Assembly (NCBI GenBank): GCA_029582265.1
Contig: CM055830.1
Coordinates: 32,529,172-32,593,171 of the forward strand
From: Zoroaster sp. YZ-2022
Taxonomy: Eukaryota > Echinodermata > Asteroidea > Forcipulatida > Zoroasteridae
Length of the DNA stretch: 64,000 nucleotides
Direction: 5' to 3'
The position numbers and the translations under genes were made by a program. Shown one piece after another: positions 8,880-62,201 of this stretch (positions within the stretch are counted from its first letter, which is position 1; each line of letters begins with the position of its first letter). The notes under the pieces are model-generated. The model had not been told where the DNA came from. It made no database searches and saw nothing but the letters and a program-made list of their open reading frames with translations.

Positions 8880-9062
8880 CTTTTGGAAACTGGTACTTTC
8901 ACCTCTTCAAATGGGGCAAAATTACTACCTGGCAAGAAGTACAGGCCATAAGTGCTGAATATGAAAGATCATTGAAAATGCATGGTGCATTTTGAAGATA
9001 AGGGCATGTTTCCAAAAGTGCACTGGAGGATTTTGGAGGGTTCGGGAAGGTACATGTACCTA
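8880..9062 (+). repeat. Dispersed ~180-bp repeat (GCACTTTTGGAAACTGGTAC), copy 1
   Basis: CAGCACTTTTGGAAACTGGT at the left and GTTTCCAAAAGTGCACTG at the right are inverted ends. The whole block is duplicated at 17541-17720. The second copy is followed by three short duplications of AAGGTTCCTAGCCAGAATAC (17720-17840). Confidence 0.7.
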
Positions 9063-9797: not shown

Positions 9798-9931
9798 AAG
9801 AATACTTTATAAGAATACTTTATAAGAATACTTTATAAGAATACTTTATAAGAATACTTTATAAGAATACTTTATAAGAATACTTTATAAGAATACTTTA
9901 TAAGAATACTTTATAAGAATACTTTATAAGA
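9798..9931 (+). repeat. 13-bp minisatellite, about 10 copies
   Basis: Nearly perfect tandem AAGAATACTTTAT units. Homogeneity suggests recent slippage. Confidence 0.95.
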
Positions 9932-22814: not shown

Positions 22815-23223
22815 TGAGTTTCACTTTTCAGTGACTTGACAAATTGTCTGAGTTGTGATGACACCTCTGATGTTTTTATAACTAATTCTTACCGCCTTCC
22901 TCATTTGTTGCTTCAAGGCAATTGTTCTTGGTTTGTTTGCAACTTGAGTTTGACTTAACTAGAGTCACTTTCTTGAGTTTCACTTTTCAGTGACTTGACA
23001 AATTGTCGAGTTGTAATGACACCTCCTGAAGTTTTGATAACTAATTTTCTTCTTTTCCCATCAATACAGGCTGCTTCAAAGCCATCATGTTCTTGTTTGG
23101 TTTGCAACTTGAGTCTGACATAACTAGAGTCACTTGAGTTTCACTTTTCAGTAACTTAATCAAGAGTTGTAATGACACCTATGAGGTTTTGGTAACTAAT
23201 TCTCATCTCCTTCTTCAATATAG
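22815..23223 (+). repeat. Tandem ~145-bp duplications of the exon 2 acceptor region
   Basis: Three diverged units share the order: TTGAGTTTCACTTTTCAGT, AGTTGTAATGACACC, TAACTAATT plus a pyrimidine tract, an acceptor-like end, then CTTCAAAGCCATCATGTTC (or a diverged form). The third unit is the genuine exon 2 junction (23224 onward). The second, around 22968-23115, keeps a consensus CAG at 23067-23069 followed by a 40-nt imitation of the exon head. The first, about 22815-22960, has lost its AG and is more diverged. Splicing to the decoy at 23070 would enter the same frame and reach TGA at 23135-23137. Confidence 0.85.
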
Positions 23224-23787
23224 GCTATCGATGCTTCAAAGCCATCATGTTCCTGGTTGGTTTCATCCTTGCCTCTGTCATCATCTTCCTGGTCTGTATC
23301 GAGCAGAGCTCACTCTCCATTGGGGCTAACGTCGGCATATCCATCGGCGTGGGCGTCGTCTGCGGCCTGGCCACCATGCTCTTCACCCTCTTCGGCCTCT
23401 TCATGACCGGCTTCCAAATGGGGATCTTCATCACAGCCGCTATCCTCATCGTCATCGAGCGCTTCTACCATCTGGACATCATCTGGATCCCGCTCAGCAT
23501 GACCTTCGGGATCGGCGCCCTCTGTGGTCTCTTCACGGTCAAGTGGCAGCGGCAGTTCTTCATTGTGTCCACGGGCGTCATAGGGGGCGCTATTGTGACC
23601 ACTTGCGCAGACTATTTCCTGGAGTTGTTTCGGATGGTCCAGTACGTGTATGATCGCTTCCGGGTGAAAAACTCCCAGGAAATGTGCTGGTATAGCTGGC
23701 TGATATTAGGAACGTGGCCTGTTATTTCGCTTCTAGGGATAATTATTCAACATAAAGTCACATCAAGAGGCTTCAGTCACAAAGATG
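23224..23787 (+). CDS. TMEM198: TMEM198-like protein, coding exon 2 (residues 71-258)
   Basis: Main membrane exon. It starts after the acceptor at 23222-23223, completes Gly71 and reads YRCFKAIMF. Hydrophobic segments lie at about residues 77-96, 104-124, 126-148, 156-175, 182-200 and 227-245, so with exon 1 the protein has seven. Small-residue patterns such as GISIGVGVVCG and the FGLFMTG stretch match the family's repeated glycine-rich helices. The exon ends at G|GTAATT in phase 1, after RGFSHKD. It is far more GC-rich than the flanking introns, as expected of constrained coding sequence. The acceptor region is unusual: partial copies of it lie just upstream (see the duplicated block at 22815-23223). 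Confidence 0.92.
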
Positions 23788-24697
23788 GTAATTTAATTGA
23801 CATATTTTATTAAAGGGAAGATACAACATTGGTAATTATCTTATTACAAAATTATCAAATGATCATAATCTGGAAGCTAACTTGATGTGAAATTGGTCAA
23901 AAGGGAGGAGGGCCAAAGTGGTGGTACAGCCAAGCCTTTGAGAAGCCTGGCCAGGCCCTGGCTACCTGCCATCCTAATCTGTCTTTTGTGAGTCCTAATC
24001 ATGTAACAAACCGATTGATCAACCTAACCTGGGCCTAGCCAAGTAGAGCTCATTGTAATGGCTGCAGTTGTGATCAAAAGACAGCTGAGCCTTAAGTCAA
24101 AGTCTGTGTTAACAATAAGAGCTATTTGAGATCTATTCATTAGTAAAGGGTCTTTTGTGCTCAGCTAGGGGATTATATAGGCCTCTAGGCCTAGGCAAGG
24201 CCTGGGCCTGGCCGGGCTTCTCAAAGGCTTGGCTGTACCACAACTTTGGACCTCCTCCCTAAGGTACATGTACCAATCATCATGTAACATTATTCTGTTT
24301 AAAGTCCTCATCTCAAAGAAAGCACACCAAAAATATGAATGTTTTCAAGAAGTTGCCAGTTGCAATTTGTTTGCTCCAAGTGTTTTCTGTAAAAAAAACC
24401 AAAAACATGTGAATGTATTTTCACACTTTAATCATGCCTTAAACCTCACATCGAGCTGAAACTTTCACAGGACAGAATTCCAAACGATCCAGCTTGGCTG
24501 CAATTGGACATCATTTCATAGGGGAAAAAATAAATAAATAAAAATACTGATGCGCAGGTCTGAGGTGACATTCACAGAAACCAGAAACCAGACACTTTTT
24601 TTTGTTGGCCTTTTCAGTGTTTATTTCAATCAACATTACATGTATGTTTCTGTCGTCCTAACCACATAACTGTCTTCATACTAATTTCTTTTTGCAG

Positions 24698-30500: not shown

Positions 30501-30885
30501 GATATAAAAGCTACACCACCTCCTCGTCGAGTTTCTGTCTTTTCAAGTAACATGTAACCATGAATGGTGAGTTCGCTAGAGCAAATAGTGCCACAAAGTT
30601 TTGTCTCCGAGAGAGCCAATATATGAATTGGTTGGTGTATAACATTACTTTCATCTGGTCCAGTTTTCCATAAAGACCATTGATGTTTAAATGAGCTATT
30701 TTTAGCCCAGAACTGCTTTTAACTGTCTCAAAAGTTAATGTACAATCAGGATCAGAATTTTTTCCATGATGTGGTGGCGGTCCAGGGTTTAATTCAACAT
30801 CGCCATCTAAAAACAATTTGTCTTGAAAAGTGGCAACGTGATTTGCATAATAAATGACCCGCTTGCCTATAAATTTCCTTCTTTA
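27550..30885 (-). pseudogene. Broken non-LTR retrotransposon (CR1/L2-like) with APE endonuclease and reverse transcriptase
   Basis: Read on the minus strand. It starts near 30885 with a 2A-like motif, followed by an endonuclease region with HLNINGL, ALSETKL, RRGGGVAF, VYRPP and ISDHD, typical of APE-type LINE endonucleases. The reverse transcriptase follows: [58 protein letters not shown] and the catalytic MYADD near 28700. A C-terminal domain follows to about 27905, then a short 3' tail. Stop codons and frame shifts occur in both the endonuclease (about 30470 and 30290) and the RT (about 29050), so it is inactive. ORF1 and the true 5' end are missing. It lies in intron 3, antisense to TMEM198. 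Confidence 0.85.
30777..30864 (-). other. 2A-like ribosome-skipping motif at LINE ORF N-terminus
   Basis: On the minus strand the frame reads FLDGDVELNPGP and then PPHHG before the endonuclease domain. It matches the 2A consensus D(V/I)ExNPGP, where translation skips the Gly-Pro bond. Such sequences are known at the N-terminus of APE-type LINE proteins in marine invertebrates, including sea urchins. The upstream frame stays open for at least 17 more codons. Activity is not shown by sequence alone. Confidence 0.75.
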
Positions 30886-33534
30886 ATTGCTAGCAAAGTG
30901 AAGCAACAATGCCAATTCATAGTGAACGCTCATGCACCTTGCTGAATTTTCTTGCTAACCTGTGAAATAGGATTTCGTTTGGATTTCATCTGCTAAGCAT
31001 ACATACATGTAATCAGCAGACAAATTTGCTTCCCGGTAAGCAGCTCTATGCAGAATCCAATATCATAAAGCTGCTATTTGAAGCAGAAAATATTGTTTAG
31101 CAAATTACTCTGCTAAGCAAATTATTGCTGGGAACCTGCCATTGTAGCAATATTCATTATGTCATAATTTGGCTGAGTACAGACTGTTTGCAGTGACACC
31201 ATATAGCTGCCAACTATTACAAATTTTTTCAGGAATTACGAAAGTACGAATTGCTCTTTAAAAATTACGAATTTCAAGTTTTCCGCCCAACTAAAAAAAA
31301 AAACGCTTGATAAAGTACCATTTTATGAACATTCGGGTAAAATCACGTATAACGATCGTAAAAATCAGAATTGGTACCCATACCGAATATTTTTGTACGT
31401 GTAGTGTGCTATAATAAATAAGTTCTGAATTACCGAAAAAGTATTATGGATGTCGATTAGCGTAGCATCAATACCTTGTTTATCGGGGTACCAATTGTGC
31501 TCAGCGGAGAGCCTACGGTTTCATCATGGCGCCCTCCAAAAGTTTCATTACTAATTGGACTTTTGAAATGTTGACAGCTATGCATATAGAATCATCATTT
31601 GAGTAGTAAAGTTCTGAAAAGCACTGGTTGGTTACAACTCAGTGTTTCGATCAGTATGCTCTGATCGTCTTCAGGACAATTTGGCTGGTAACCTTTGTTT
31701 GCTATAAAGTATAAGTTTTCTTAGCTTGGTAAACTTGTATACTTAGCAGCGATACAAAATTGGCCCACGGGCCTAAGCCCCAAGGAGCTCAGGAAGCATT
31801 GATCTTGAGCAGGAAAGTGATAACCAACTCCATTGTGGTCCCAACGGTCAGAAATATTTCCTTAGTCTGGTCCCTTGATGCCTGAGTCACTTGCGTGGGT
31901 TCACTTAGAAAAGGTACTCAACACCGATTTGACATTTCGGTACACACTTGGCTTTTAAAGGCATTTGTATGCCGGCAGTTACCTGCTGCTAGAACGTTTA
32001 GGCCTATCATCAGCAGGCAAGTGTTCGACTGTTGAGTCTGCACTAGAAAGCAAGAGGTGGTGGGTTTGGAATCCTTCTTGTGGAGTTGTTTTGTCTGCGG
32101 ACACTTAAAAGTACAGAGTTAAAGTGCTGCGTCAGTGAACGGAAAAACCATATTAAATAACATGTATATCAAATTAAGGGTAAAACCCATGTAAGCTTTG
32201 CTTTGTGAAAAGGATATGTAAAGCTTGTTTGCAGTGACACCATGTAAAAAATAACCTTTGAGGAGTAAATACATGTAGTTCTGAAAACCAACCGGTTCTT
32301 TTCAGAACCACTTACTACTCAAAAGAGAATTTGTACATGGAGTCACCGCAAACAGTCTTTACCATGTACATGTACAGTGTTGTACATATCAGACATGTGA
32401 TTTCTCAGGATTTTTTCTGATTTGAGGATTTTTCTTGAAAGAAGAGAAGTAGCCACCAAGGAATGAAAGAAGTAGCCTGTATTGTGTCCAAATCTCTAGT
32501 TTCTTGTTTGTGGGGATGCGGAGAGTCTGTAAATCCTCCAAAATTAAACATCCAGGAGATTCAGGGGCTTTTGTCCTCTAGACCAAAGGGAGACACAGGC
32601 CCGCTACCCATTTTTTAAAAGGATTTTTGACTTTTGTCAATCGCACCCCTGACATGTACTTGCACCTTTAAACAGTAGGGTTGCGCATTTTATGAATCAC
32701 TTTTTCCTCTTTTAAGACAAGTGAGATTCAAATAGGTCTGTATTCCCAGTGTGCATTGTAATTATTAACACATGAAGGGGGAAATTCACTTCACCAGATT
32801 CATGCCACCTTGAAAAATGTCAAATCGATCAACGCCGGGACTACTTAAATACTACACGTAATCATGTGCACACGTACACTATGGGTGTAGTGTCACGATA
32901 TCATCAGTGGCGGCCATCTTTGTTTTCCAGTGCATACGTCTTTAGGAACCAAAGTGAGGCTCATGTTAAAAATAGACTGGTGCTTTTCAGACAGATTAAT
33001 TTAATGATGGCTTTTTTAATGGACAGTCAGGGATCCGGACAATTTATACACAGTGGCCATGTTGAGAATCAGAAAGAAGGTAATGTCCAAAATAGACAGG
33101 TGCTTTTCCAACTGTGATTTTAGAAAGAAAAAAATTCTGGTTTGGAGTTAGGGAATCATACAAATATGTGTATGCACATACATGTACCCATACGTAGGCT
33201 AATCTTTTAGAATGCAGTGCTTGTTTTTGAGAAATTGTGTGTCAGTCAGTAGAATACGACGTCATGAATGGCTCAAATACATCATTTCTGGAGACACTGC
33301 AGCAAACTATGCAATAACACAGTTATCACATTTAACACTAACCATGCTCAATGCAACAAGATGCAACATATGAAAATAGTTGTAGCATCCTGTTGCCCTC
33401 AGCAGAGAACAAAAGAACCATTGTTTCTAGCTGGTGGATCTTGTTGCATTGAGCAGCCTGCACACTTTTCTGTTGTTGCATATTGTTGCATTCAGCAGGG
33501 TGTCAGTGAAATGTTTGTAGGGGGTAAGGGTTAA

Positions 33535-37380: not shown

Positions 37381-37791
37381 AAAGTCCTTTGGTAATTTCA
37401 TAAAAACATAATTGATTACGGTTTCACCTTCAACTTCCGTCGTGTAAAGTTTATGATTTTATCAAGTATCCCTGTCTGAATGTTTCTGTCAAATGTTTCT
37501 GTCTGAAGTACTTTCATTTTAGTAAAGTTTGTTTAAAATTATTCCCCTACTGTCTTAATGAAAAAAAGGTGAAAGTTCTGAATTATAATGAATTTGTATT
37601 TATTAAGTTCTTTCGGGTACACCATGTAATAATCTCTTCTTGGAAGAAGTGATGGCTCTGAGAAGAGCCGGTTTGTTTGTTCTCAACGTTTCGACGAGTC
37701 TGCTCTAGCCGTTGTCAGGAGACAGTCTTCTGATAACAGTCTCCTCATCGGGAGACTATCTCCACCATGCAAAGCCTAAATCCTACATTAA

Positions 37792-38151: not shown

Positions 38152-38215
38152 TTAAAGTTTGTATTTGCTGATCCAAAGGTCTGTAAGCAGTCTCACAAAT
38201 TTCTTGTATTACAAG

Positions 38216-39396
38216 CAGGGTTGTCACCAGACCAAATTGAGTGCCGGCTAATTTTATCGATTGCGAGCGTAGTGAACGGAGCGCAGCTCCTCACGTCCGG
38301 GGGTCTAGGGGGCGAAGCCCCCCGAAGCTCCTGGGTTTTAGCTTTTAAGAATGGATTTGGAGGGCTCACCTTTCACATAATTTGTTGTATAATAGTATGA
38401 TATTTTCATAGTATTATACAAGAATTTATGATGTGAAGGAGTGCCCTCCAATGCAATTGACAACAATGTTGGCTCAGAAAAACTGAAACTTCTGTATGGC
38501 CTACCAGGTGTCCACTTTTCGCTATTAAACTTAGATGCCAGCTTCTGTTTTTTTGATGAGGTGGTAACACTTGAGCAACCGGGGCCGTCAGGCATAGCAG
38601 CTCCGAGTTTTTGGCCTAAATCCACAGTGGCCGAAGACTCGGTAGCGTGATCAGTTCCCGGGTCAGTTGTACTCGAACACGAAGATGTGGTCGCAGAAGA
38701 ATGTCTCGAATTTGCCGGCTTCTCGCTTGACCCGGCTGCCGTGTCTATCACTGCCGGCCCCTTGCGTTTAGTGGCCGAAGAGAAAAAGCTGGTGATACTT
38801 TTCTGCGAGTGCGACATAATTATTTTGATCAAAACACTTCCAAAAAACGTTCACAAAACTTTTCATGAATGGGCGGAGGGACGCACGTGAATAATTTTCC
38901 CTTTGCTGAGCACATCGCGGGGAAAGCTAGACGTTTACGAAGTCACGCTTAACCAACCTGAAATTTACGTACATGTACAGTATGTACATCGACATTACGA
39001 AGCACGTCGCATCATTTACACGCGGTAGAGACTAGTGGCATTAGCTCATCGTGCAGGCGCAAACAACCAATCATAATGGGGATTCCCAGGTCTTTTCCCT
39101 GACGTCATAAATAAATGCTAATTAGTGTATTTGTTTGTACCGCTACAAACTGAGATTTATTTTATAATATCGTACGATGTTTTAATTGATCTATAGACTA
39201 AAGTCCTCAAAATAATGGCAAATAACTCAAAGAAATGAAGAATACATGAACTTTTTAAACTTTTATTACTGTTTAATGAAATATTCACACATTTTTTGTG
39301 CCGGTCGGTAAGACATCAATTTGCGTTTGGTGCCGGTCGGCCAGAGGGAGTGCCGGTTAGACCCGACCGGCGCCGACCGGCGTAGCTACAACCCTG
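38216..39396 (-). mobile_element. hAT-family DNA transposon, internally deleted, with 8-bp target-site duplication
   Basis: The 1181-bp element starts CAGGGTTGTCACC and ends GCTACAACCCTG, giving CAGGGTTG-type inverted ends. It is flanked on both sides by the identical octamer ATTACAAG (38208-38215 and 39397-39404). Eight-base duplications and CAGGG ends are diagnostic of hAT elements. It retains a GC-rich minus-strand 5' end with a coding frame and a likely promoter (TGACGTCA near 39099), but no catalytic region, so it is non-autonomous. GTGCCGG-type subrepeats lie near both ends. Perfect duplications suggest fairly recent insertion. Confidence 0.88.
38338..38817 (-). CDS. N-terminal fragment of a hAT-element protein with PIP-box-like motif
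   Basis: A minus-strand frame from the ATG at 38817 begins MSHSQKSITSFFSSATKRK, followed by a Ser/Thr-rich, low-complexity segment to about residue 80 and a basic KKQKLASKFNSEKW stretch. QKSITSFF fits the PCNA-interacting PIP box (QxxIxxFF). A donor-like GTGAGC at 38369-38364 on this strand suggests the true exon ends at 38370 and the remaining in-frame codons are intron. An upstream in-frame ATG at 38832 would add five residues. The DNA-binding and catalytic parts expected of a hAT transposase are absent, consistent with internal deletion of the element. Expression is unknown. Confidence 0.5.
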   Translation of the reverse strand: MSHSQKSITSFFSSATKRKGPAVIDTAAGSSEKPANSRHSSATTSSCSSTTDPGTDHATESSATVDLGQKLGAAMPDGPGCSSVTTSSKKQKLASKFNSEKWTPGRPYRSFSFSEPTLLSIALEGTPSHHKFLYNTMKISYYYTTNYVKGEPSKSILKS

Positions 39397-44226: not shown

Positions 44227-44793
44227 CAAATGAAAACAAAAGGAATTCACAAAGGAATGCATATACAAAGGAATGTACATTGTTAAAGTGGTTTGTGGGG
44301 GGACCAACATGGCGTACAGTGGCTTTGAATGGAAGCGCATGATCTTCTATTCAGTCAGTATTAATAGAGATCGTTGTTCTGCCCAATCGGTCCTTATCCA
44401 TAGGATTAAGACCATGCTAGGAGCTTTTTATTCCAGTGTTATTTTCTTTAGTTCTATTGCTATCCTTCTAATAGAAGAATTTACTTTTGGGTTATATGCA
44501 ATATTGTATAGTTGGTCTGTATAGTGCCAAGTGTATTCTGTAGCTAAGGTCAAATATTCGGTGGTGTATATATTTTTTGCTAGAATTAGAAATGAAACTA
44601 AGAATCATTTGGTTTGAATCTCTGGTGTAACCAAAAATGTGTCTAATATAATCAATTTTTGGTGCAAAATAATGGATATAATAGTTGATTTCACAGCAGT
44701 TTTCCTGAAATACTGTTGGAATTTGGACCTGTTTTATTGACTTGGAATCTATCTGAAGGTTCCACCAATTTTGACTTCAACAAATCAGTTCCA

Positions 44794-44831
44794 CAGTCAC
44801 GTGACAAATCACATGATTTGTTACGTGACTG
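44794..44831. repeat. 38-bp hairpin with CACGTG
   Basis: CAGTCACGTGACAAATCA is followed after two bases by its complement with one mismatch (TGATTTGTTACGTGACTG). One arm contains the E-box CACGTG. No larger element is evident. Confidence 0.6.
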
Positions 44832-45029
44832 ATTATTCAAATAAGGCTCAACACAGCTGTAATAGTATACAAATAGAATGGGCTGTACATTGTAATATGA
44901 GCTTCCAAAATAATGTATTATTTCAAGAAATGTTTATAGAAATAAGCACAAAAATGCATTTAAAAAAAATAAAAACAAGTAATTTGTTTGTATGCTTTTA
45001 ATTGAACAAAGGGGTCATTTAAAAAAATA

Positions 45030-46006
45030 AAAAATACTGTAGAATGAATGACTCTCTAAATGAACAAAGGGGGATACTGTAGAATGAATGACTCTCTAAA
45101 TGAACAAAGGGGGATACTGTAGAAGAATGACTCTCTAAATGAACAAAGGGGGATACTGTAGAATGAATGACTCTCTAAATGAACAAAGGGGGATACTGTA
45201 GAATGAATGACTCTCTAAATGAACAAAGGTGGATACTGTAGAAGAATGACTCTCTAAATGAACAAAGGGGGATACTGTAGAATGAATGACTCTCTATGAA
45301 CAAAGGTGGATATTGTAGAATGAATGACTCTCTAAATGAACAAAGGGGGATACTGTAGAATGAATGACTCTCTAAATGAACAAAGGGGATACTGTAGAAT
45401 GAATGACTCTCTAAATGAACAAAGGGGATACTGTAGAATGAATGACTCTAAATGAACAAAGGGGATACTGTAGAATGAATGACTCTCTAAATGAACAAAG
45501 GGGATACTGTAGAATGAATGACTGACTCTCTAAATGAACAAAGGGGATACTGTAGAATGAATGACTCTAAATGAACAAAGGGGGATACTGTAGAATGAAT
45601 GACTCTAAATGAACAAAGGGGATACTGTAGAATGAATGACTCTCTAAATGAACAAAGGGGGATACTGTAGAATGAATGACTCTCTAAATGAACAAAGGGG
45701 GATACTGTAGAATGAATGACTCTCTAAATGAACAAAGGGGGATACTGTAGAATGAATGACTCTCTAAATGAACAAAGGGGGATACTGTAGAATGAATGAC
45801 TCTCTAAATGAACAAAGGGGGATACTGTAGAATGAATGACTCTCTAAATGAACAAAGGGGGATACTGTAGAATGAATGACTCTCTAAATGAACAAAGGGG
45901 GATACTGTAGAAGAATGACTCTAAATGAACAAAGGGGGATACTGTAGAATGAATGACTCTCTATGAACAAAGGGGGATACTGTAGAATGAATGACTCTCT
46001 AAATGC
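45030..46006 (+). repeat. 40-bp minisatellite, about 24 copies
   Basis: The unit joins GATACTGTAGAATGAATGAC to TCTCTAAATGAACAAAGGGG. Variants lack TCTC or one G. The last half kilobase is nearly homogeneous (45650-45905), while the 5' portion mixes subtypes, suggesting recent expansion from the 3' side. No frame stays open. Confidence 0.95.
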
Positions 46007-48296: not shown

Positions 48297-48617
48297 AGGC
48301 AAAAAAAGGTCTCCGGTTTTTGTCTCCGCGCGCGTCGCCCGCCTCAGACCCGCGTGTCGGCTTTTTTTGCTTTGCTATGAAACGATGCTATGAAACGACT
48401 ATTTTTTTAACATAGGGGTATGAACGTTTGCCCGATTTGTGAGGCCTCTCTTAGCCACCATACTTGGTATATGGGAAATTTGGTCCCTACGTATACAATG
48501 TATCACGTATTTCCCTGTTGGCAAAAACAAACAAACAAAAACAGATGGCCGAAAAAAGCGATTTTGAAGCCTACTGATGACCAGAAACCGGAGACTTTTA
48601 CGCTGATTTTCTTGGCC
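48297..48617. mobile_element. MITE family E, copy bordering the palindrome
   Basis: From GGTCTCCGGTTTTTGTC to AGAAACCGGAGACTTTTACG. It ends about 60 bp before the left edge of the giant palindrome at 48675. Confidence 0.65.
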
Positions 48618-49159
48618 GCTGGTCCTTCGGTGTTGATTTCGAAAGGTGCAATGGAAGCGCACCGCCAACGGCGAGAGCGGAGAAAGGTTTTCAAAACCGA
48701 AGATTGGGGCCCAATTTTTTCAATCCATATTACGAAAAAAAATAAGATAAATTAAACCGACAAGGGCGAGTTAAATTATACCCAGATATCGGCCTATTCT
48801 GGAACTGTCACTGGATTATCTTTTTAATGTACAGCAACCCTTGATATCGGTGTTGGAAAATAGCACACGGTTAAAATGCTTCTCGTACCCGTTGCCTTAT
48901 CCAGATGAGCTCTCATTGGACGATTCCCATTTGCACACATGTACTTACTACTTCTGGGTGATTGAATCGCATTCGACTTGGCATGTTTAATTCTAAAGTT
49001 TTTTTTTCAATTGAATGTATTTAATTTAAAGTATTTAATTTAATTTTCAAAGCTGTGCGACTTCCACCACCAGATCTTACGAGAGCCTTTATACTCTAAC
49101 AGCATGTTGGAGTGAGTCCTCTGCATAAATACTTAGATTTCCCTTCCATTGTCAGGTGA

Positions 49160-49826
49160 ATCGGTAGCGTGGTTGTTAAGCCGATGATTTCAGCGTAAGG
49201 GATCCTGGTTCAAATCCCAGTGGAGCCATTGTTTTAAATTTATAAATGGTTACGATATCACGATTATTGAAGAAGTTTGAAATTCAGAGCTAACTACCAG
49301 CACGAATTGATGGCGTAGTTGTTAAGTTGATTGGGTATCAGTGCAAAGCACACTGGTTCGAATCTTGGTGGCCCAAATATTTTAAATTTTAAATGGTTAC
49401 GCAATCTCAATAATTTAAATGGTTTAAAATTCCTATCAAACTACCAACAGGGATTGGTGGCGCAAGCCACAAACACTGGGTTTCAGTGCAGGTGACCTGG
49501 GTTCGAATTCCAGTGGCGCCGTTATTTTAAATTTTAAATGGTTACGCAATTACAATAATTTAAATGGTTTAAAATTCCTGTGTACTACCAACAGGGATAG
49601 GTGGCGCAAGCCACATGCGCTGAGATTCAATGCAGGCGACCTGGGTTCGAATCCCAGTGGCGCCACTTTTTTAAATTTTAAATGACTACGCAATCACGAT
49701 TTATTTAAGTAGTTTAAAATTCAACTCCAGATACCAACAGGATAAATGGCGCGAGCCGTTAGTCCACTGGGCTGTCAATTGCGGCAGTTCCAGGCTGGTA
49801 CGTCCGGGTTCGAATCCTGCTCCTGA
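49160..49826 (+). repeat. Array of five tRNA-like units, left palindrome arm
   Basis: Five units about 143 bp apart each carry an A-box-like (TGGCGYARNY) and a B-box-like (GGTTCRAATCC) sequence at tRNA spacing. B boxes are at 49207, 49355, 49500, 49644 and 49807. The units differ in the loop between boxes but share AT-rich linkers containing TTTAAATGGTTACGCAAT. A T-arm can be drawn (CTGGG-TTCGAAT-TCCAG in unit 3), but the first seven bases do not pair with the 3' end, so these are tRNA-derived RNA polymerase III promoter-like units and not working tRNA genes. Unit 5 has a longer inter-box region, like a class II (Leu/Ser) tRNA. Confidence 0.7.
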
Positions 49827-50339
49827 AACACAGAGACATGGCAGCTGCTGGCTGCGGCAATGGCTTGGGGACCGCCATGTCTCTCCCCTGAAGGTTAGAG
49901 CGTGGAGGAAATGTACGGACGGGGGAGAAAAGGAGGGACCGGGAGGGTAGCGACCTCCCAGAAGGGTGCTATGGTGATCATCATACCGGGGTGTCTCGGA
50001 CTTTGAGTCATCCGAATACCTGGTCGACACTCTGACTAACTCTCCGCACTTTTTTACAATAATTTTTATTTCTTTTTAATTTATTTATTTATTTTATTTT
50101 TATTTTTTATTTTTTTAATCAATCGAATCCCAGCGGTGCCGTTTTTCATTTCGAATGGTTACGCATTCACGATTTATTTCAGTAGTTTAAAATTCAATTA
50201 AACTTGATTTATTTCTATATAAATTTATTATACATATATAAATAAGCAAATCAACCCAAGCATAATGCAATAAGCTAATACAATAAGCTAATGGAAAACA
50301 CCTTGTGTTCCCAAGTATTTTATCTTCCACAAGTAATAA

Positions 50340-51655
50340 TATGGGTGTATTCTGCAGTGGCTGTATTCTGCAGACCAAGTGGTTCATTCTGTGAAATTTA
50401 GGATAGAATTGGAGACAACTTTTTTTCGCGGTCAAAAAAAACCCTTGTCGTTTTTTCCAAATTTGGCCTAAAAAGGCCTTTTTTCAAAATGATTAATACT
50501 TGCTGGAGAAGACGTAACAGAGTGCCTAGAAGACATTTGTGGTAATTTGAGTCGCCTATCTTTTCAACCTTTTAAGAAAATCAATATTTTATGAAACAAT
50601 ATAGGTAAAATTTCAAAATTTTAAACTTGTCCAAACAGGCTGTAACTCGGTGGCTGTATTCTGCAGACACATTGGTTCATTCTGTGTAATTTTGAAGCGA
50701 ATCGGAGACAATTTTTTTTCGAGGTGAAAAAAAACGACAAGGGGTACCCCTTGTCGTTTTTTCCAAATTTCGCCTAAAAATATCATTTTTTCAAAATGAT
50801 TAATACTTGCTGGAGAAGACGTAACAGAGTGCCTAGAAGACATTTGTGGTAATTTGAGTCGCCTATCTTTCCAACCTTTTAAGAAAATCAATATTTTATG
50901 AAACAATATAGGTAAAATTTCAAAATTTTAAACTTGTCCAAACAGGCTGTAACTCGGTGGCTGTATTCTGCAGACACATTGGTTCATTCTGTGTAATTTT
51001 GAAGCGAATCGGAGACAATTTTTTTTCGATGTCAAAAAAACAAGGGGTACCCCTTGTCGTTTTTTCCAAATTTGGCCTAAAAATGACATTTTTTCAAAAT
51101 GATTAATACTTGCTGGAGAGACGTAACAGAGTGCCTAGAAGACATTTGTGGTAATTTGAGTCGCCTATCTTTCCAACTTTTTAAGAAAATCAATATTTTA
51201 TGAAAAAATATAGGTAAAATTTCAACATTTTAAACTTGTCCAAACAGGCTGTAACTCGGTGGCTGTATTCTGCAGACACATTGGTTCATTCTGTGTAATT
51301 TTGAAGCGAATCGGAGACAATGTTTTTTCGATGTCAAAAAAACAAGGGGTACGTACCCCTTGTCGTTTTTTCCAAATTTCGCCTAAAAATATCATTTTTT
51401 CAAAATGATTAGTACTTGCTGGAGAGACGTAACAGAGTGCCTAGAAGACATTTGTGGTAATTTGAGTCGCCTATCTTTCCAACTTTTTAAGAAAATCAAT
51501 ATTTTTATGAAAAAAATATAGGTAAAATTTCAAAATTTTAAACTTGTCCAAACAGGCTGTAACTCGGTGGCTGTATTCTGCAGACACATTGGTTCATTCT
51601 GTGTAATTTTGAAGCGAATCGGAGACAATTTTTTTAGAGTGTGACAAACGACACC
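50340..51655 (+). repeat. Tandem ~305-bp repeats, about four copies, left arm
   Basis: Successive copies of TGTAACTCGGTGGCTGTATT start at 50641, 50949, 51250 and 51558 (spacing 308, 301 and 308). A partial, more diverged unit precedes them. Each unit contains a KpnI-centred palindrome based on GACAAGGGGTACCCCTTGTC; in the 50729-50762 copy it is perfect over 34 bp. Poly-T and poly-A stretches flank it. The right arm holds one full unit and part of another (52980-53400). Confidence 0.85.
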
Positions 51656-51662
51656 GTACCCC

Positions 51663-51935
51663 TTGTCGTTTTTCATTGTCCTAAAATTCCCAGATCGCTC
51701 TTGGGGTGACCACAGCTTTTTTCCATGCTGGCCCTACTCTTTGGAACAGTCTTGCCCTCTTCCTTCGTCAAGCTTCTTCAACCAGTTCTTTCAAACAATT
51801 ACTCAAAATCTAAATCCCATTTTAATTTTGTTGAGCGCCATGAGCGTCAGTCACTACGTGATGGATTTGTGCGCTATATAAGAAACACTAGCTACTACGA
51901 CTGTAAAGGGTTTCTAATGAAGTTTTAAAAAAAAA
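51663..51935 (+). pseudogene. LINE reverse transcriptase C-terminus and 3' tail, left arm
   Basis: Although frame-shifted in this copy, translation shows RSWGDHSF, a CWPYSLEQSCPL-like frame and LLQPVLSNNYSK. This is the SFSHAGPTLWNSLP...SFKQLLK signature found at the end of CR1/L2-type ORF2 proteins. It is followed by a GCGCTATATAAGAAAC tail resembling LINE 3' ends. Its mirror copy is at 52750-52975. Confidence 0.6.
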
Positions 51936-52039
51936 ATGAATTTAATTCAAATAATTTATTTCATTCCAAAAATCATTTAGTATTATTCCCTATACTCTAA
52001 AACGTCACCAAAACAAATATTACCTTGATCCTACCCCAT

Positions 52040-52600
52040 AAACCCCCTAACCCTAATCTAACCCTAACCCCTATCCATGGTGATTTCTTGGTTTGAACCC
52101 CTGATATGGAGGATTTTTTAACCGCTTCATTTGTACACGTTGAATAGCGCGGGGTGAACCCGGGATATGGACGATTTTTAACAAGCCCATTTGTACACGT
52201 TGTATAGCGCGGGGTGAACCCGGGATATGGACGATTTTTAACAGCCCGTATTGTACACGTTGAATAGCGCGGGGTGAACCCGGGATATGGACGATTTTTA
52301 ACAAGCCCATTTGTACACGTTGAATAGCGCGGGGTGAACCCGGGATATGGACGATTTTTAACAGCCCGTATTGTACACGTTGTATAGCGCAGGGTGAACC
52401 TTCAATATCCTTCATATCGGGGGTTCACCCTGCGCTATACAACGTGTACAATACGGGCTGTTAAAGATTATCCATATCCCGGGTTCACCCCGCGCTATTC
52501 AACGTGTACAAATGAAGCGGTTAAAAAATCCTCCATATCAGGGGTTCAAACCAAGAAATCACCATGGATAGGGTTAGGGTTAGATTAGGGTTAGGGGGTT
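52040..52600. repeat. Pair of short telomere-like (TTAGGG) boxes flanking the palindrome apex
   Basis: CCCTAACCCTAATCTAACCC near 52044-52074 and its complement near 52565-52600 lie symmetrically on either side of the 60-bp repeats. Each has three to four imperfect TTAGGG units, too few to call a telomere. They mirror one another as part of the arms. Confidence 0.6.
52110..52565. repeat. 60-bp tandem repeats around the palindrome apex
   Basis: About five 60-bp units containing TTGAATAGCGCGGGGTGAAC run to 52400; about two inverted units follow the apex to 52560. Because 60 is a multiple of three, the minus strand at 52071-52415 is open and would encode a 20-residue repeat (IPGSPRAIQRVQ...LLKIVH). 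I see no start context or other sign of coding. Two unit subtypes (AAGCCCATT and AGCCCGTAT) alternate in the left arm. Confidence 0.85.
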
Positions 52601-52749
52601 TATGGGGTAGGATCAAGGTAATATTTGTTTTGGTGACGTTTTAGAGTATAGGGAATAATACTAAATGATTTTTGGAATGAAATAAATTATTTGAAAAAAA
52701 CATTAAATTCATTTTTTTTTTTTACTTCATTAGAAACCCTTTACAGTCG

Positions 52750-52975
52750 TAGTAGCTAGTGTTTCTTATATAGCGCACAAATCCATCACGTAGTGACGCT
52801 CATGGCGCTCAACAAAATTAAAATGGGATTTAGATTTTGAGTAATTGTTTGAAAGAACTGGTTGAAGAAGCTTGACGAAGGAAGAGGGGAAGACTGTTCC
52901 AAAGAGTAGGGCCAGCATGGGAAAAGCTGTGGTCACCCCAAGAGCGTAGCGATCTGGGAATTTTAGGCCAAATTT
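52750..52975 (-). pseudogene. LINE reverse transcriptase C-terminus and 3' tail, right arm
   Basis: The minus-strand frame reads RSLRSWGDHSFSHAGPTLWN, continues SLPLFLRQASSTSSFKQLLK, and then the GCGCTATATAAG tail. The motif matches the extreme C-terminus of LINE ORF2. Because both arms contain the same tail at the same relative position, the LINE fragment was present before the inversion duplication. Confidence 0.65.
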
Positions 52976-52979
52976 GGTA

Positions 52980-53400
52980 AAAAACGACAAGGGGTACAGT
53001 GTACCCCTTGTCGTTTTTTTTCACCTCGAAATTTTTTTTTCTCCGATTCGCTTCAAAATTACACAGAATGAACCAATGTGTCTGCAGAATACAGCCACCG
53101 AGTAGCCTGTTTGGACGAGTTTAAAATTTTGAAATTTTACCTATATTTTTTCATAAAATATTGATTTTCTTACAAAGTTGGAAAGATAGGCGACTCAAAT
53201 TACCACAAATGTCTTCTAGGCACTGTGTTACGTCTCTCCAGCAAGTATTAATCATTTTGAAAAAATGTCATTTTTAGGCCAAATTTGGAAAAAACGACAA
53301 GGGGTACCTCTTGTTTTTTTGACATCGAAAAAAAGTTGTCTCCGATTCTCTTCTAAATTTCACAGAATGAACCACTTGGTCTGCAGAATACAGCCACTGC
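52980..53400 (-). repeat. Right-arm counterpart of the 305-bp repeats (one to two units)
   Basis: Reverse complement of the left-arm unit, including the GACAAGGGG/CCCCTTGTC palindrome (52984-53016, with a small central insertion) and the CTGCAGAATACAGCCACCGA segment. The lower copy number than in the left arm accounts for most of the arm-length difference. Confidence 0.8.
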
Positions 53401-53929
53401 AGAATACACCCATATTATTACTTGTGGAAGATAAAATACTTGGGAACACAAGGTGTTTTCCATTAGCTTATTGTATTAGCTTATTGCATTATGCTTGGGT
53501 TGATTTGCTTATTTATATATGTATAATAAATTTATATAGAAATAAATCAAGTTTAATTGAATTTTAAACTACTGAAATAAATCGTGAATGCGTAACCATT
53601 CGAAATGAAAAACGGCACCGCTGGGATTCGATTGATTAAAAAAATAAAAAATAAAAATAAAATAAATAAATAAATTAAAAAGAAATAAAAGTTATTGTAA
53701 AAAAGTGCGGAGAGTTAGTCAGAGTGTCGACCAGGTATTCGGATGACTCAAAGTCCGGGACACCCCGGCATGGTGATCACCATAGCACCCTTCTGGAAGG
53801 TCGCTACCCTCCCGGGCCCTCCTTTTCTCCCCCGTCCGTACATTTCCTCCACGCTCTAACCTTCAGGGGAGAGACATGGCGGTCCCCAAGCCATTGCCGC
53901 AGCCAGCAGCTGCCATGTCTCTGTGTTTC

Positions 53930-54600
53930 AGGAGCAGGATTCGAACCCGGACGTACCAGCCTGGAACTGCCGCAATTGACAGCCCAGTGGACTAACGGCT
54001 CGCGCCATTTATCCTGTTGGTATCTGGAGTTGAATTTTAAACTACTTAAATAAATCGTGATTGCGTAGTCATTTAAAATTTAAAAAAGTGGCACCACTGG
54101 GATTCGAACCCAGGTCGCCTGCATTGAAACTCAGCGCATGTGGCTTGCGCCACCTATCCCTGTTAGTAATACACAGGAATTTTAAACCATTTAAATTATT
54201 GTGATTGCGTAACCATTTAAAATTTTAAAAAACGGCGCCACTGGAATTCGAACCCAGGTCACCTGCACTGAAACCCAGTGGTTGTGGCTTGCGCCACCAA
54301 TCCCTGTTAGTAGTTTGATAGGAATTTTAAACCATTTAAATTATTGAGATTGCGTAACCATTTAAAATTTAAAATATTTGGGCCACCAAGATTCGAACCA
54401 GTGTGCTTTGCACTAATACCCAATCAACTTAACAACTACGCCATCAATTCGTGCTGGTAGTTAGATCTGAATTTCAAACTTCTTCAATAATCGTGATATC
54501 GTAACCATTTATAAATTTAAAACAGTGGCTCCACTGGGATTTGAACCAGGATCCCTTACGCTGAAACCATCGGCTTAACAACCACGCTACCGATTCACCT
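53930..54600 (-). repeat. Array of five tRNA-like units, right palindrome arm
   Basis: Mirror image of the left-arm array, read on the minus strand, with complements of the B box at about 53938, 54098, 54247, 54394 and 54538. Each unit pairs with its own counterpart by inter-box sequence and not merely by family, so the whole array was inverted as a block. Small differences occur, such as GCGCTGAGATTCAATGC against GCGCTGAGTTTCAATGC. Confidence 0.7.
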
Positions 54601-55074
54601 GACAATGGAAGGGAAATCTAAGTATTTATGCAGAGGACTCACTCCAACATGCTGTCAGAGGATAAAGGCTCTCGTAAGATCTGGTGATGGAAGTCGCACA
54701 GCTTTGAAAATTAAATTAAATACTTTAAATTAAATACATTCAATTGAAAAAAAACCTTTAGAATTAAACATGCCAAGTCGAATGCGATTCAATCACCCAG
54801 AAGTAGTACATGTGTGCAAATGGGAATAGTCCAATGAGAGCTCATCTGGATAAGGCAATGGGTACGACAAGCATTTTACCGTGTGCTATTTTCCAACACC
54901 GATATTAAGGGTTGCTGTACATTATAAAGATAATCCAGTGGCAGTTCCAGAATAGGCCGATATCTGGGTATAATTTAACTCGCCCTTGTCGGTTTAATTT
55001 ATCTTATTTTTTTTCGTAATATGGATTGAAAAAATTGGGCCCCAATCTTCGGTTTTGAAAACCTTTCTCCGCTC

Positions 55075-56064
55075 AGTGTCTGTATTCTGCAGACCGAGTG
55101 GTTCATTCTGTGAAATTTAGAAGAGAATTGGAGACAACTTTTTTTCGAGGTGAAAAAAACGTCAACCCTTGTGTTTTTTTCCACTCCAAATTTGGCCTAA
55201 AAATCGAATTAAAAAAAAAAAAAGGCCTCATACTTGAAAAACGGCACCGCTGGGATTCGATTGATATTTACTATAAAAATAAAAAATAAAAATAATTAAA
55301 TTTATTGTAAAAAAGTGCGGAGAGTTACTCAGAGTGTCGACCAGGTATTCGGATGACTCAAAGTCCGGGCGAACCGGCATGGTGATCACCATATAGCACC
55401 CTTCTGGGAGGTCGCTACCCTCCCGGTCCCTCCTTTTCTCCCCCGTCCGTACATTTCCTCCACGCTCTAACCTTCAGGGGAGAGACATGGCGGTCCCCAA
55501 TCCATTGCCGCAGCCAGCAGCTGCCATGTCTCTATGTGTCAGGAGCAGGATTCGAACCCGGACGTACCAGCCTGGAACTACCACAATTGACAGCCCAGTG
55601 GACCAACGACTTGCGCCATTTATCCTGTTGGTATCTGGAGTTGAATTTTAAACTACTTAAATGAATCGTGATTGCGTAGTCATTTAAAATTTTAAATAGT
55701 GGCGCTACTGGGATTCGAACCCAGGTCGCCTGCAATGAAACCCCAGTGCCACTTGCTTGCGCCACCAATCCCGGTTGGTAGTTTGATAGGAATTTTAAAC
55801 CATTTAAATTATTGTAATTGCGTAACCATTTAAAATTTAAAATAATAGAGCCAATGGAATTCGAACTCTGGTCGCCTGCACTGAAACCCAGGTCCTGTGG
55901 CTTGCGCAACCAATCCCTGTTAGTAGTTTAAGAGGAATTTTAAACCATTTAAATTATTGTGATTGCGTAACCATTAAAAATGTTTAAAAAGTATCGCCAT
56001 TTATCCTGTTGGTATCTGGAGTTGAATTTTAAACTACTTAAATAAATCGTTATTGCGTAGTCAT
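55075..56064 (-). repeat. Third, partial copy of the palindrome arm outside the palindrome
   Basis: Immediately after the right arm, arm-derived blocks recur in the right-arm orientation: the end of a 305-bp repeat (55080-55200), the GC-rich block (55315-55530), then tRNA-like units with B-box complements at about 55550, 55713 and 55860, and a truncated linker to about 56064. The units are more diverged than those in the arms. This suggests repeated segmental duplication at this site. Confidence 0.65.
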
Positions 56065-56083
56065 TTAAAATTTAGTTTTCTAA

Positions 56084-56499: not shown

Positions 56500-59435
56500 G
56501 GAGAACATTAATAATGCACTTGGAATATGGAAAAATGGTAGCAAATTAGTTGTAATTTTATTGCAATATTACACTGTCAATCATAATTTAAATTTAGTTC
56601 TTTAAAATTTACAACAATTAATATGACATGGTTTTGTTTAAATTACATATATATGTAATGACAACTTTGGTTAACCTCTGAGGAAAGAACAAATCTTATT
56701 TCCATGACCGTAAAATAAATGTGTTATTATGGTTGAATGTTTTATAAACTTATTAAAATAAAATAAATTATTTATTTTATTATTTGTATTATATCACTCA
56801 ACATACATGTATATTAGGTTTTTTCTTGATTTCATTAAATGTTTTTGTTGTTCTTGTTAAATTAAGGTTAGGTATTATTTATTATTACATATTTTGATTA
56901 AGATTTTTATTTGCCTTTAGTTTCTTTTGCATAAATATTACAATTTACTATTTTGTTTTATTTTGTTTAGTTGATGGGTTATTTTTTAGGGTTATTTCAT
57001 CAAAATATTTATTTATAATTTATTTTATTATTATTTTTTTATTATATTATAATTTCAGTTAAGTTTCAATGCTCACTGGTGTTTACAGTTTTTACCAGAC
57101 TTTAGTTGTATTGTTAATTTTAGCTTTAATCAAGGTTATAATTATTTAATTGATTTATTTGATTCATAGCTTATTATATTTTTACAATTACCTTTCTTTT
57201 TTAAAGTTTAGTTTTAATGCTGAATTTTTTTTTTTTAAGTTTAAGGTCTACACATTTCCATGGTTATTCTTGTGTTGTGTCCTTTGAAATTAAGATACTT
57301 TATATGTAAGATACATTATAAATGTATAAAATATAATGTAATGTTGGTTTTAATCATGTTTAAAACAAATTAGCCATTTATGAATATTTAATTTAATTTA
57401 ATTTATGAATATTTAATTATATTTAATTTAATTTTATATTCCTTTACTCTGATGCTCTTCATTTCATTTTTAAAACAAATGTCTGACACACAGCTCTCTA
57501 AAACTGGTCATGAGAATAAATATTTTCTTTCCTCAGAAAAAAATTAACTTGACACCTTGACTTTCCCTAATTTAAAATTATACCGCTCAATTCGGTTGAA
57601 ACTAGCTGTTAAACCCTTTAGGTAATATTTGTAGCTTTGCATGGTGAAAACAATAAGTAAAGACCATTTGCGGTGATACCATGTGAAATTCTCAAATAGA
57701 GTAGTAATTAGTTCTGGATGTTACAACTCAACATTTCATTAAACCCCTTGTTTAACATTTCTAATTGGCAAATGCTATTTCCTTTTAGTGACTTAAATCT
57801 TGTGGGTGAATAATACCTGTATATTGCATTTTGTGGCAATGCTAAATCCAGTCTTATAAGGTAAATAATACACAGAAGTAATGAGATTTAAAGCAATTTT
57901 GAAATGTAATTACACAATAGAGGGCGCTTTCTATTAGCAACCCATAGAATATTTTGCAATTATACACAATGCATCTTGGTCTAGCTAGCAATCATCATTC
58001 ATATTTCCCTGAACATTAGTGTGTAGTTTGTAAACGAGCAACCTACGTAGTTGTAGTTGCATTAACTATCAAACAGAAGAAAATCATGTCTCACTGAGTT
58101 TTGATCATTAGCTAGACCATCATGCATTACAAAAAATCAGCTTGTTCTTGCTCACTGTCGTATTTGCGGAGAAATCTATACATGATAATCATTATATTCG
58201 CACAGGCCTCGAATTTAACTGCGGCCACTGCTGTGGTGCCCCTCCGAGTTGGCCGTAATGCCCCTTTGGTTGGCCTTGAAATTTTGATGCAGCCAATGCC
58301 AAAGTGCCCATGCCCTTTCAATCCATAAGGTTGAGGCCTATTCATAGCACTGTACTCTAGTACAGATATAACACACAAATTTCCCTAAAACAGGGGTGTG
58401 ATTGGGCAGTTTGGAAAAATCCACGTAAATTTTGCTAGGGGTATTTGAGGCCGCTGTTGTGAACAGCGCTGGGGTGAAATCTACAGTTCTGAGCGTTTGC
58501 TTTGCTTTCCTTTGTTTAAATCTTTAAAATCCGGAGGATCACAACATTGCGATTTGTGAAAATCGGAAGGAAAAAAAAATAAAAAAAATAAATAAATAAA
58601 AAATCGGAAAAATCCTGCTAAAAACATACAAATTTCCCTTACCTTACAGATCAACAACAAACAACAATTCAAATTACACTCACAGGTTCTAAACAAAACT
58701 TCTGATAAGGACAGCATGGAATAGCGGGTACAAAGTGATTTCATGTATAGACATATTTCACATCAACGGTCATCTTGTTTATCTTATATACAAATCCATG
58801 GACCAAACCGAGGCTGGAAGGAAATAGTCTGGTACCCCTTATGCATTGTGAATCGGTGCCAGGATTGCACTAATGTGCAGGGAATCAGACAAAGATGGCC
58901 GTTGCATGATATAAACAGGTGCACCCCACTAAACAGCGACAAATTCACGCGCCGAGTTTATATTTATCATAATTTGTATGTCCTAAAACTTTTCTGAAAA
59001 ACAAAGATTTGAGGCCCATTCATTTGAGGGATTGTGTAAAAATGGTCACAATATCATAACCTGGGGTTCCTTGACTTCCAACTTTGAGTATATTGGATAC
59101 ACACTAGGCCATTATAAAGTGGTCCTAATTTGATTTCAAGCATAAGGCCTTTTTCCCAAAATGGCTGCTTTTCAGTGTGGTCGTTTTCACTAGAGGGTGC
59201 TTTCATTGGGATGATGGGCTGGACCTATCTGGAATATCCACAATAACTTCAGAAAATAAAGGTTTTTTTTTTTTTTTTTAGATATCACTAAATATTTTTT
59301 TCTTTTGGTTTTAAATATTGTAGGATTTTTGAATATTTTGTATTTAGCACTGGTTACTATGGGAGTTTATTTAGTGGGGTACACCCAAAATGTCTATAGA
59401 AATTATTGTGATACAAGCAGGTCTCGGTAAAATAT
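56500..59435. other. AT-rich gene-free region
   Basis: 56500-57620 is extremely AT-rich (TTTAATTTAATTT runs). 57760-59435 has ordinary composition with no supported gene; a CAGGGGTGTGATTGG string at 58391 resembles a hAT end but no partner end was found. 60620-61105 and 62590-62980 also show nothing coding. Confidence 0.6.
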
Positions 59436-60410: not shown

Positions 60411-61109
60411 TAGAGCCTCAGTCGGCAAATGAAGCATCAAAGGTATTAGAAGAAGCGTTGGTCCAGAATAAATTTGCAGTCGGCAAACCTAGAGCTATGG
60501 GTTTGTCGACTGCAAATGTATTGTGTTCTTGAGTTCTTTCAGGTACACCATGTAATGCTCTCTTTTTGGAAAAAGTGATGGCTCTGAAAAGAGTCGGTTG
60601 GTTTGTTGTCAACGTTGTGTATTTTGTTTCTAAGCACTGAAGATTTGCCAAGTTGTTTGTTATCAGTTGTTTTTACTATGTAACACATTGTATTTTTCAG
60701 GTGTCCCTGGATTTGGGGTACATTAGTTCATCAATTTGGGTCTGGGGTGGGATGAGGAGAATTAAGAAGCTGATAGGTCACTAGAACGGGGAGAAAGTAA
60801 TAAGATTGTAAAGTTGAGAAAGATGGGAATTATAGATAAGGTTAGTACAAAAGGTAAAATTGTGAAGGTTTGGCTGGAGAGGTCACAAGTTCATGAATGA
60901 AGAACGGGAGACAATAGCAGATTGGAGATGAACGCAGTGGGAAAAGTGCTTTACAGAAAAGATTAGTAATGTATGCAAAACTAAGGTGATGTATTTGTTC
61001 AGTACTACAGGAAAAAACCAACTTTGTCAACATCAAACAAAATACAATTTCAGTACTGACATGGTTAGGGGACCTTTACGTGTACAATACATAATGGCCT
61101 TGGATTTAA

Positions 61110-62165
61110 CATGCAAACCTGGTTGAAAATGTTAAACCTTTCCTTCGATTTGAATTGTCTTGACATTATACTGTATAACTTGCATCATATAAACCTGGTT
61201 GAAAATGTTAAACATTACACTAGTCTTAAGTTTATATCGCTTGTTATGCACCATGTAAACATAGTTGAAAATATTAAACCATAAACTTTTGATATTAAAG
61301 CTTTTTAACTAACTTGCACCATATAAACTGGTTGATTAAACCTTCAACTTGGATTAAATGACATTCAGCTTCTAATTTACATGCACTGTGTAAACCTGGT
61401 TGAAAATGTTGAATCTTTGATTGTCTTGAGCTTATAGGCTTCTTATATACACACGTCATATATTAACCTGATTGAAATGTCGAATCTTCTACTTGGATTA
61501 TATAAACCTGGTTGAAAACATTAAACCTTCAACTTGTTCTTTCGTGTATATAACTATAACTATCATATTAACCCTAACTCCCTAGGCCCAATTGCGTACA
61601 CATAACCTGAATCCTCCAAAATCCTTCAGTAGTAAAGCAAGCACATGACATGTATGCACACATGTGTTTCTAATCTGTGATACATGTACATGGCCAGGGA
61701 CCTTCCCTGCATGCATGGAGCAATAAACAGTGTCCAGTGACCCAAGCACTGACCTTGCAATCACTGCAACAAACATGGATGTACATGTCCCGTGGAAAGG
61801 CAAGTATGCCTGATAACCTCAATCCTCCAAAATCCTTCACTTTAGCAAAGAGGATTTTGGAAGATTTGGGAAGGTTAGGGTTACCCTGTTGAGAAATGTT
61901 AAACCTTCAACATGGACTGTCCAGACATACATGTACAAAGCTTACATACAATTGTATCCATTACTTTCACATCATAAACCCAGTTGAAAACATTAAACCT
62001 TCAACATGGATTGTTCTTACATTATGTACATGTATAACTTGCATATTATTAACCTGATCAGAAATGTTAAACCTGGACTGCCTTAACATATAAAGCTTAC
62101 GTATATATCTGTAACTTTCACATCATAAACCGAGTTGAAAAATGTTACAACCATCAACTTTGATT
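61110..62165 (+). repeat. Diverged 60-75-bp repeats (AACCTGGTTGAAAATGTTAAACC)
   Basis: At least ten copies of AAACCTGGTTGAAAATGTTA, each followed by a loosely conserved CTTCAACTTGGATTGT and CATTATATAA spacer. The array is broken at 61565-61870 by unrelated DNA with a CCTCCAAAATCCTTC repeat. Confidence 0.7.
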
Positions 62166-62201
62166 GTAATAATGCACAAATAATAGTGCAATTCAATTTA
62201 G

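Follow-up and report, generated by a model that had tools for sequence, protein, structure and literature searches.

The question raised by this locus is how a 6.4-kb palindrome came to stand at positions 48675-55074 of the 64,000-nucleotide stretch of Zoroaster sp. YZ-2022 DNA analysed here (the window, C15:32529172-32593171). Large near-perfect palindromes are described as unstable and rare in natural genomes (PMC10766186), and because of this instability and rarity their origin can seldom be read. A first-pass annotation of the letters had described multi-kilobase arms in mirror order and had considered a giant foldback element, a hairpin-type inverted duplication or a breakage-fusion product. 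The reading preferred here, to which we give a probability of about 0.7, is that the palindrome is a fold-back inverted duplication which took place inside a single copy of a segmental-duplication block, itself dispersed and rich in palindromes. The features on which the argument turns are the following (window positions).

39397-62200, no strand: multi-copy segmental-duplication block with the palindrome inside; homology of the window extends left to 38152
48404-48600, plus strand: dispersed repeat W, left flank of the palindrome
48675-52400, plus strand: left arm, modules A-H, by the comparison below ancestral and in place
48675-49157: module A, left arm
49158-49740: module B, tRNA-like 145-bp array, left arm
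49741-50064: module C, GC-rich, left arm
50065-50341: module D, AT-rich, left arm
50342-51664: module E, 305-bp repeats, left arm
51665-51920: module F, left arm
51921-52093: module G, with telomere-like box, left arm
52094-52400: module H, 60-bp repeats, left arm
52401-52421, no strand: apex loop of 21 nucleotides (nt), an old feature common to sibling copies
52422-55074, minus strand: right arm, H' to A', an inverted copy of the left arm specific to the window lineage
55072-55075, no strand: outer junction A'/e, with 2-3 bp of microhomology (TC or CTC)
55075-55235, plus strand: e, a unit of the ancestral 305-bp array, now truncated at the junction
55236-56074, minus strand: X2, an older inverted copy of modules C and B

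The palindrome is present in the assembly, and chance is not an issue as its origin. Self-BLAST and a global alignment of the arms (48675-52400 against 52401-55074) bear out the mirrored order of modules, with 48675-50779 pairing with 55074-52961 (2123 columns, 96.4%) and 51259-52241 with 53397-52401 (91.2%). The 21-nt loop was also placed correctly by the annotation; it is closed by a perfect stem of 44 bp, the longest in the window among stems with loops of 0-40 nt, and the folded apex (321 nt) has a DNA z of -21.9 against 100 shuffles. Tandem Repeats Finder reports 307-bp x 4.2 and 60-bp x 5.1 arrays in the left arm and a 60-bp x 2.2 array in the right. A telomere-like box lies on either side of the apex, in CCCTAA sense at 52045 and in TTAGGG sense at 52571; this order is opposite to that of a telomere-telomere fusion, the boxes facing away from each other, and the breakage-fusion option was therefore rejected in its telomere type.

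The arms differ, as had been noted, by point changes and by repeat copy number. In the unique part (48675-50200) 29 of 1521 columns differ (1.9%), while the global alignment contains 67 mismatches in 2655 aligned columns and 14 gaps, the three large ones (600, 297 and 159 bases) all being sequence absent from the right arm. The left arm accordingly has a surplus of about three units of 305 bp and about three units of 60 bp. Mismatches by module amount to 10/478 in A, 13/583 in B, 6/324 in C, 0/277 in D, 3/240 in F and 2/171 in G, and are more frequent in the tandem arrays (18/434 in E, 15/148 in H), probably because different units were paired there. A divergence of this size fits the claim that the structure has persisted, although that persistence is bounded, as the palindrome is younger than the split from the sibling copies on contig C16 (about 6.5-7% divergence). 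The left arm differs by 3.2% from locus L031, by 6.5% from L019 and by 6.8% from L020, and the right arm is slightly farther from each (3.8%, 7.0% and 7.2%).

The same 1.9% brings in the possibility of misassembly or chimera, in which alleles or paralogues were joined head to head or an amplification palindrome was assembled. Heterozygosity in three echinoderm genomes is 1.97%, 3.22% and 3.47-4.40% (PMC11139871, PMC11310086, PMC11310861), so that the arms lie under or near the allelic range and an allelic misjoin is conceivable on divergence alone; false palindromes from amplification and missed adaptors are also described (PMC6218980). A read artefact, on the other hand, should give near-identical arms, not this number of substitutions together with a difference of about 1 kb in the arrays. 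The comparison with sibling copies bears on this explanation at two further points, the apex and the outer flanks, as set out below.

Siblings were sought in the host genome (1.002 Gb, 616 contigs); only the best candidates were scored, and locus counts are lower bounds. The palindrome region of the window belongs to a block that exceeds 20 kb and exists in multiple copies. Pieces of it, about 82-98% identical, lie on C15, C16, C11, C5 and smaller contigs, the number of places ranging from at least 8 for 57100-58000 to about 20 for 44300-45030. Insertions and the palindrome excepted, window 41505-61764 is colinear with C16:12619001-12638332, in pieces 87-96% identical. The left edge of the block is ragged, as for segmental duplications: the match of the window ends at 38152, and four copies continue jointly for at least 1.3-1.5 kb. 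Rightward homology was followed as far as a query at 61000-62200.

The left end of the palindrome, which the annotation had taken for a border, did not survive this comparison. L020 (C16:12.63 Mb) and L019 (C16:30.27 Mb) are continuous across 48674/48675 at 95%, and W is directly followed by module A in L031, L033, L038, L039 and L041 as well; L032 has about 300 bases between the two, and in L009 part of the W-A stretch is missing. By this comparison 48675 is not a border of the repeat family, and since paralogues cross it, the left arm is ancestral. Within this arm module F behaves differently among the copies, being unbroken in both window arms and split by about 360-370 bp in L009, L010, L012, L019 and L020, at nearly the same point in all five (window 51883-51920).

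The apex, too, is found elsewhere. An apex query returned at least 173 matches (best 40 of 226 candidates), many of them as plus/minus pairs. With two or fewer edits allowed, 12 of the 22 loci scanned (L009-L030) contain the loop, which gives 16 apex sites beyond that of the window. Most of the 22 had been picked for matching the apex query; one additional match in L021 lies within a repeat array and is excluded from the 16, and no loop was found in L031-L033 or L038. Exact copies of GGGTGAACC and GGTTCACCC flank the loop at 9 of the 16 sibling sites. Four loci (L010, L012, L015 and L020) have ...CACTATACAACGTGTACAAATGAAGCGG or a close variant to the right of the loop, their right half beginning with the reverse of the first 60-bp unit, while at this place the window repeats, over 44 bp, the last unit of its own left arm in reverse complement. 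The apex hairpin, made of the H repeats and the 21-nt loop, is on these comparisons ancestral, and its occurrence at 16 other sites speaks against misassembly.

What distinguishes the window is the sequence beyond the apex. L019 and L020 lack the right arm, which is 98% identical to the left, at the corresponding position, and in both, as in L013, the homology to the window resumes at 55072-55073. Position 55074 is crossed by the window alone among 56 matches listed to 54600-55300 (best 40 of 509 candidates). From loop to e the distance is 1267 bases in L020, 987 in L019, 970 in L022 and 961 in L023, so that the new arm stands where four siblings carry 0.96-1.27 kb of other sequence. In the siblings the sequence before e is 305-bp array, ending in ...AACTCAGCGTCTG in most (...AACTCAG) and in ...AAATCAG in L020. 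The copied arm ends in ...CCGCTC and has 2-3 bp of microhomology with the siblings, namely TC by the BLAST overlap with L020 or CTC by the sibling sequence. The right border at 55074 thus looks private to the window, and the comparison with siblings shows the right arm to be a newer inverted copy of the left arm of its own locus. In agreement with this reading, the window arms are sisters both in a tree of modules B and C (14 rows, support 92/97) and in a tree of modules A-D (17 arms, 100/99), where L031/L033 are nearest (99/97). X2, a third copy of modules C and B adjoining the right arm, differs by 8.1% from the left arm and by 8.5% from the right (749 columns) and groups in the first tree with minus-strand copies of L012/L013 (99/97).

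The outer junction also bears on two of the rival explanations. Joined alleles would have common outer flanks, yet the right arm stops at the equivalent of 48675 and meets different sequence; misassembly therefore needs two false joins, would also have to mimic natural divergence, and is judged unlikely. The other rival holds that the full palindrome is old and that its arms were recently homogenised by gene conversion from arm to arm, a process reportedly known in large palindromes. Older mirrored groups do exist in this family (L031/L033/L009 and L039-L042, discussed below). An old palindrome is nevertheless difficult to reconcile with the A'/e junction being found in only 1 of the 56 matches listed, the window itself, and with siblings that have the same right flank and differ between loop and e. 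Moreover, the longest identical run between the arms, 327 bp, is not exceptional (618 of 10000 permutations reach it), and homogenisation of an old palindrome seems most improbable.

The fold-back duplication would then have proceeded as follows. Ancestral left arm, apex, newer right arm and junction are taken from the sibling comparison; the break, the fold-back, the copying and the end joining are steps that we infer. A break or stalled fork to the right of the apex would leave a 3' end, which could snap back on the pre-existing hairpin, with GGTTCACCC annealing to GGGTGAACC. A polymerase might then copy the left arm outward over 2.65-3.7 kb, as far as 48675, after which microhomology-mediated end joining would attach the new end to one of the units in the 305-bp array. 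As for the difference in tandem units, slippage may have removed some from the copy, or the left arm may have acquired more of them later.

Events of a similar kind are described in human, where inverted duplications have a spacer in the loop and inverted microhomology of 2-8 bp (PMC3907307), and in yeast, where short fold-back insertions are closed by end joining (PMC11724301). The likeness consists of an inverted copy separated by a non-duplicated loop, inverted homology at the turn and an outer junction resembling end joining. In contrast to these precedents, which lie next to terminal deletions or measure 5-34 bp, the palindrome of the window is interstitial and its arms are 2.65-3.7 kb long; its loop has 21 nt where those described there have 0.77-70 kb; its turn uses an old hairpin common to sibling copies; and it has apparently persisted, being found in a genome assembly. 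Origin-dependent inverted-repeat amplification (ODIRA) predicts an inverted triplication and an origin inside the unit, and no triplication is seen here.

Several observations weigh against the fold-back reading and must be considered with it. The 9-bp arms next to the loop are imperfect in 7 of the 16 sibling apexes, and the 2-3 bases of microhomology at the outer junction are short enough for chance. The private nature of this junction rests on the best 40 of 509 candidates. The nearest relatives of the arms, L031 and L033, are without the H loop, so that the state before the event is taken from the more distant L019 and L020. With L031 as outgroup, the right arm has 18 derived changes and the left arm 9, a difference that is not significant (p 0.12). 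When the loop was compared with the 60-bp lattice, it matched the right arm at 15 of 21 positions (3 of 200000 shuffles) and the left arm at 7 of 21, and this test alone pointed to the opposite polarity; the result is explained if the loop is an old part of the right half. Together with the neighbouring X2, it had suggested the right arm as the original, an idea overturned by the paralogues that run across 48674/48675. Finally, L009 contains another F-G-H/H'-G'-F' palindrome with arms 91% identical, and the inner symmetry of the window could be older than its outer part; this is disfavoured because the window arms differ at only 5/411 columns in these two modules, F and G.

Mirroring of the same arm is not confined to the window. 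L038 (C16:21.196-21.206 Mb) has arms at 369-2252 and 8021-9857 that match over 1885 columns at 96.6%; they turn within the 305-bp array without the H loop, and the mirrored arm ends at window-equivalent 48599, the inner edge of W. The L038 arms differ in modules A-D by 7/1264 (0.55%), as opposed to 1.18% from L020, and are sisters with support of 90/87, under the star threshold of the tool. Apparently this locus represents a second, independent mirroring with other breakpoints. Within one genome the siblings appear to preserve the states before and after, along with the point of turning, the junction at the outer end and a further event of the kind, so that natural examples are available for testing the fold-back model. 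An assembled palindrome whose arms are 2% apart, moreover, need not be a haplotype error. In two further cases the mirroring appears to be older. The left arms of L039/L040 and L041/L042 group with left and the right arms with right (93/88 each), so that both pairs appear to derive from one common mirroring, the arms of L041/L042 on C80 having long branches and being 19% apart. L031, L033 and L009 appear to have another, as one arm type groups at 100/100 and the other arms of L031 and L033 at 100/98; the other arm at C15:32.12 Mb takes no well-supported position in the tree. These two older palindromes were later copied along with the block. Their mirrored arms reach, with interruptions, to at least 48303 (L039/L040), at least 46480 (L031) and 44215 (C15:32.12 Mb), 48743 being an interruption and not an end. 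L016 and L017 (C15:35.230-35.240 and 35.244-35.254 Mb), which are about 97-99% identical, oppositely oriented and separated by about 4 kb where they come closest, and each of which has the loop core, form another young inverted duplication.

This variety of ends is of importance for the foldback-type transposable element (FB, Tetris, Galileo or sea-urchin TU like), a unit that would be moved by a transposase. Long inverted repeats with unequal numbers of internal tandem units are shared with Tetris, FB and Galileo, as far as described for Tetris (PMC4079207); the arm and window 44300-45030 occur as inverted pairs at several loci, the latter in four (C15:32.12, C15:31.54, C15:26.17 and C5:35.2 Mb), and a small palindromic core, whose loop is conserved, recurs at scattered loci. 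Unlike those elements, the palindrome has neither a target-site duplication nor common outer borders in the host genome, and its right arm is absent from L019 and L020 without a clean empty site. A scan of 51 x 51 border positions around 48674/55075 for words of k 5-12 gave 27 candidates, 26 of them within the near-palindrome GGTTTTCAAAACC of the arm and one a 5-mer with unmatched offsets. Siblings run on across the left border, the right junction is crossed by no other of the 56 matches listed, and mirrored arms end variously at 48675, 48599, at least 48303, at least 46480 and 44215. No transposase turned up, though no family scan of the block was made, and the 41-62 kb interval has few open reading frames (ORFs) that reach 120 aa. 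The search for copies of the arm with the same borders, in the end the most informative check, did recover related inverted structures elsewhere, but none with those borders, and a transposed 6.4-kb unit is very unlikely, whereas siblings without the new arm favour the hairpin-type inverted duplication that had been listed beside it.

A bolder extension of the fold-back reading would make the block a self-mirroring repeat, its 60-bp-repeat hairpin with the 21-nt loop serving as a standing primer for repeated inverted copying. If this were true, the sibling copies would record successive rounds of palindrome birth and decay, and the block could even be a mobile long-inverted-repeat element of 15-23 kb that spreads by self-mirroring. 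The palindromes at L031-L033 and L038, which turn without the loop, count against the idea, and it is regarded as rather doubtful; a giant mobile element is possible but unsupported.

The dispersed block pieces with inverted copies and the ragged left edge resemble complex segmental duplications. The block differs from other duplication families in the repeated origin of mirrored arms, within repeat sequence and around a hairpin that is conserved. At C15:32.113-32.1375 Mb the inverted structure is nested and extends over about 20 kb. No description of the block was found among the titles and abstract openings returned by a literature search that used general wording and covered subscription papers in part.

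As to the contents of the arms, the tRNA-like character of module B amounts to B-box-like motifs, as ARAGORN and Rfam at gathering score each report 0 tRNAs in it, and 'LINE tail' is a label that the first-pass annotation gave to part of the arm. At a lax threshold Rfam gives 10 matches, all under gathering score, and the three with alignments correspond to hairpins, either at the apex or within a 305-bp unit. Two arm ORFs had no protein match at E 0.001, pattern scans gave 0 matches for three arm patterns against viral contigs and 0 for one against genome contigs, and a biochemical function of the palindrome is not indicated; a role as a source of hairpin RNA or siRNA would be speculative. 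Several of the 305-bp units (50342-51664 and 52961-53400) contain a palindrome centred on GTAC, perfect over 34 bp in one unit (centre 50745) and with the spacer variants GTACGTAC and GTACAGTGTAC; the units could be tandem inverted-repeat elements with a common TA.

Elsewhere in the window, an insertion of about 1.2 kb (38216-39396) has an exact 8-bp duplication, ATTACAAG, and the ends CAGGGTTG...CAACCCTG; four siblings have the empty site, at least 39 other genome copies of about 1.0-1.2 kb exist, and we take the insertion to be hAT-like. Rfam matches to the histone 3' stem-loop at 32289-32334 (plus strand) and 37629-37674 (minus strand) lie within dispersed repeats and are probably false, there being no histone gene among the window ORFs of at least 120 aa. 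On the minus strand, a reading frame at 30511-30882 contains DVELNPGP, presumably a 2A-like motif, and 28689-29087 matches a reverse-transcriptase fragment (Pfam RVT_1); the two are probable remains of a non-LTR (long terminal repeat) retrotransposon. A 40-bp minisatellite of 24.7 copies at 45034-46005 has a much longer counterpart at the sibling locus C15:32.13 Mb. A TM198-like exon (Pfam) at 23196-23813, whose matches mark the host as echinoderm-like, has a best match of 66%, 55% with the sea cucumber Apostichopus japonicus, two further matches of 55-60%, and the remainder at 35-44%, mostly in reptiles and birds.

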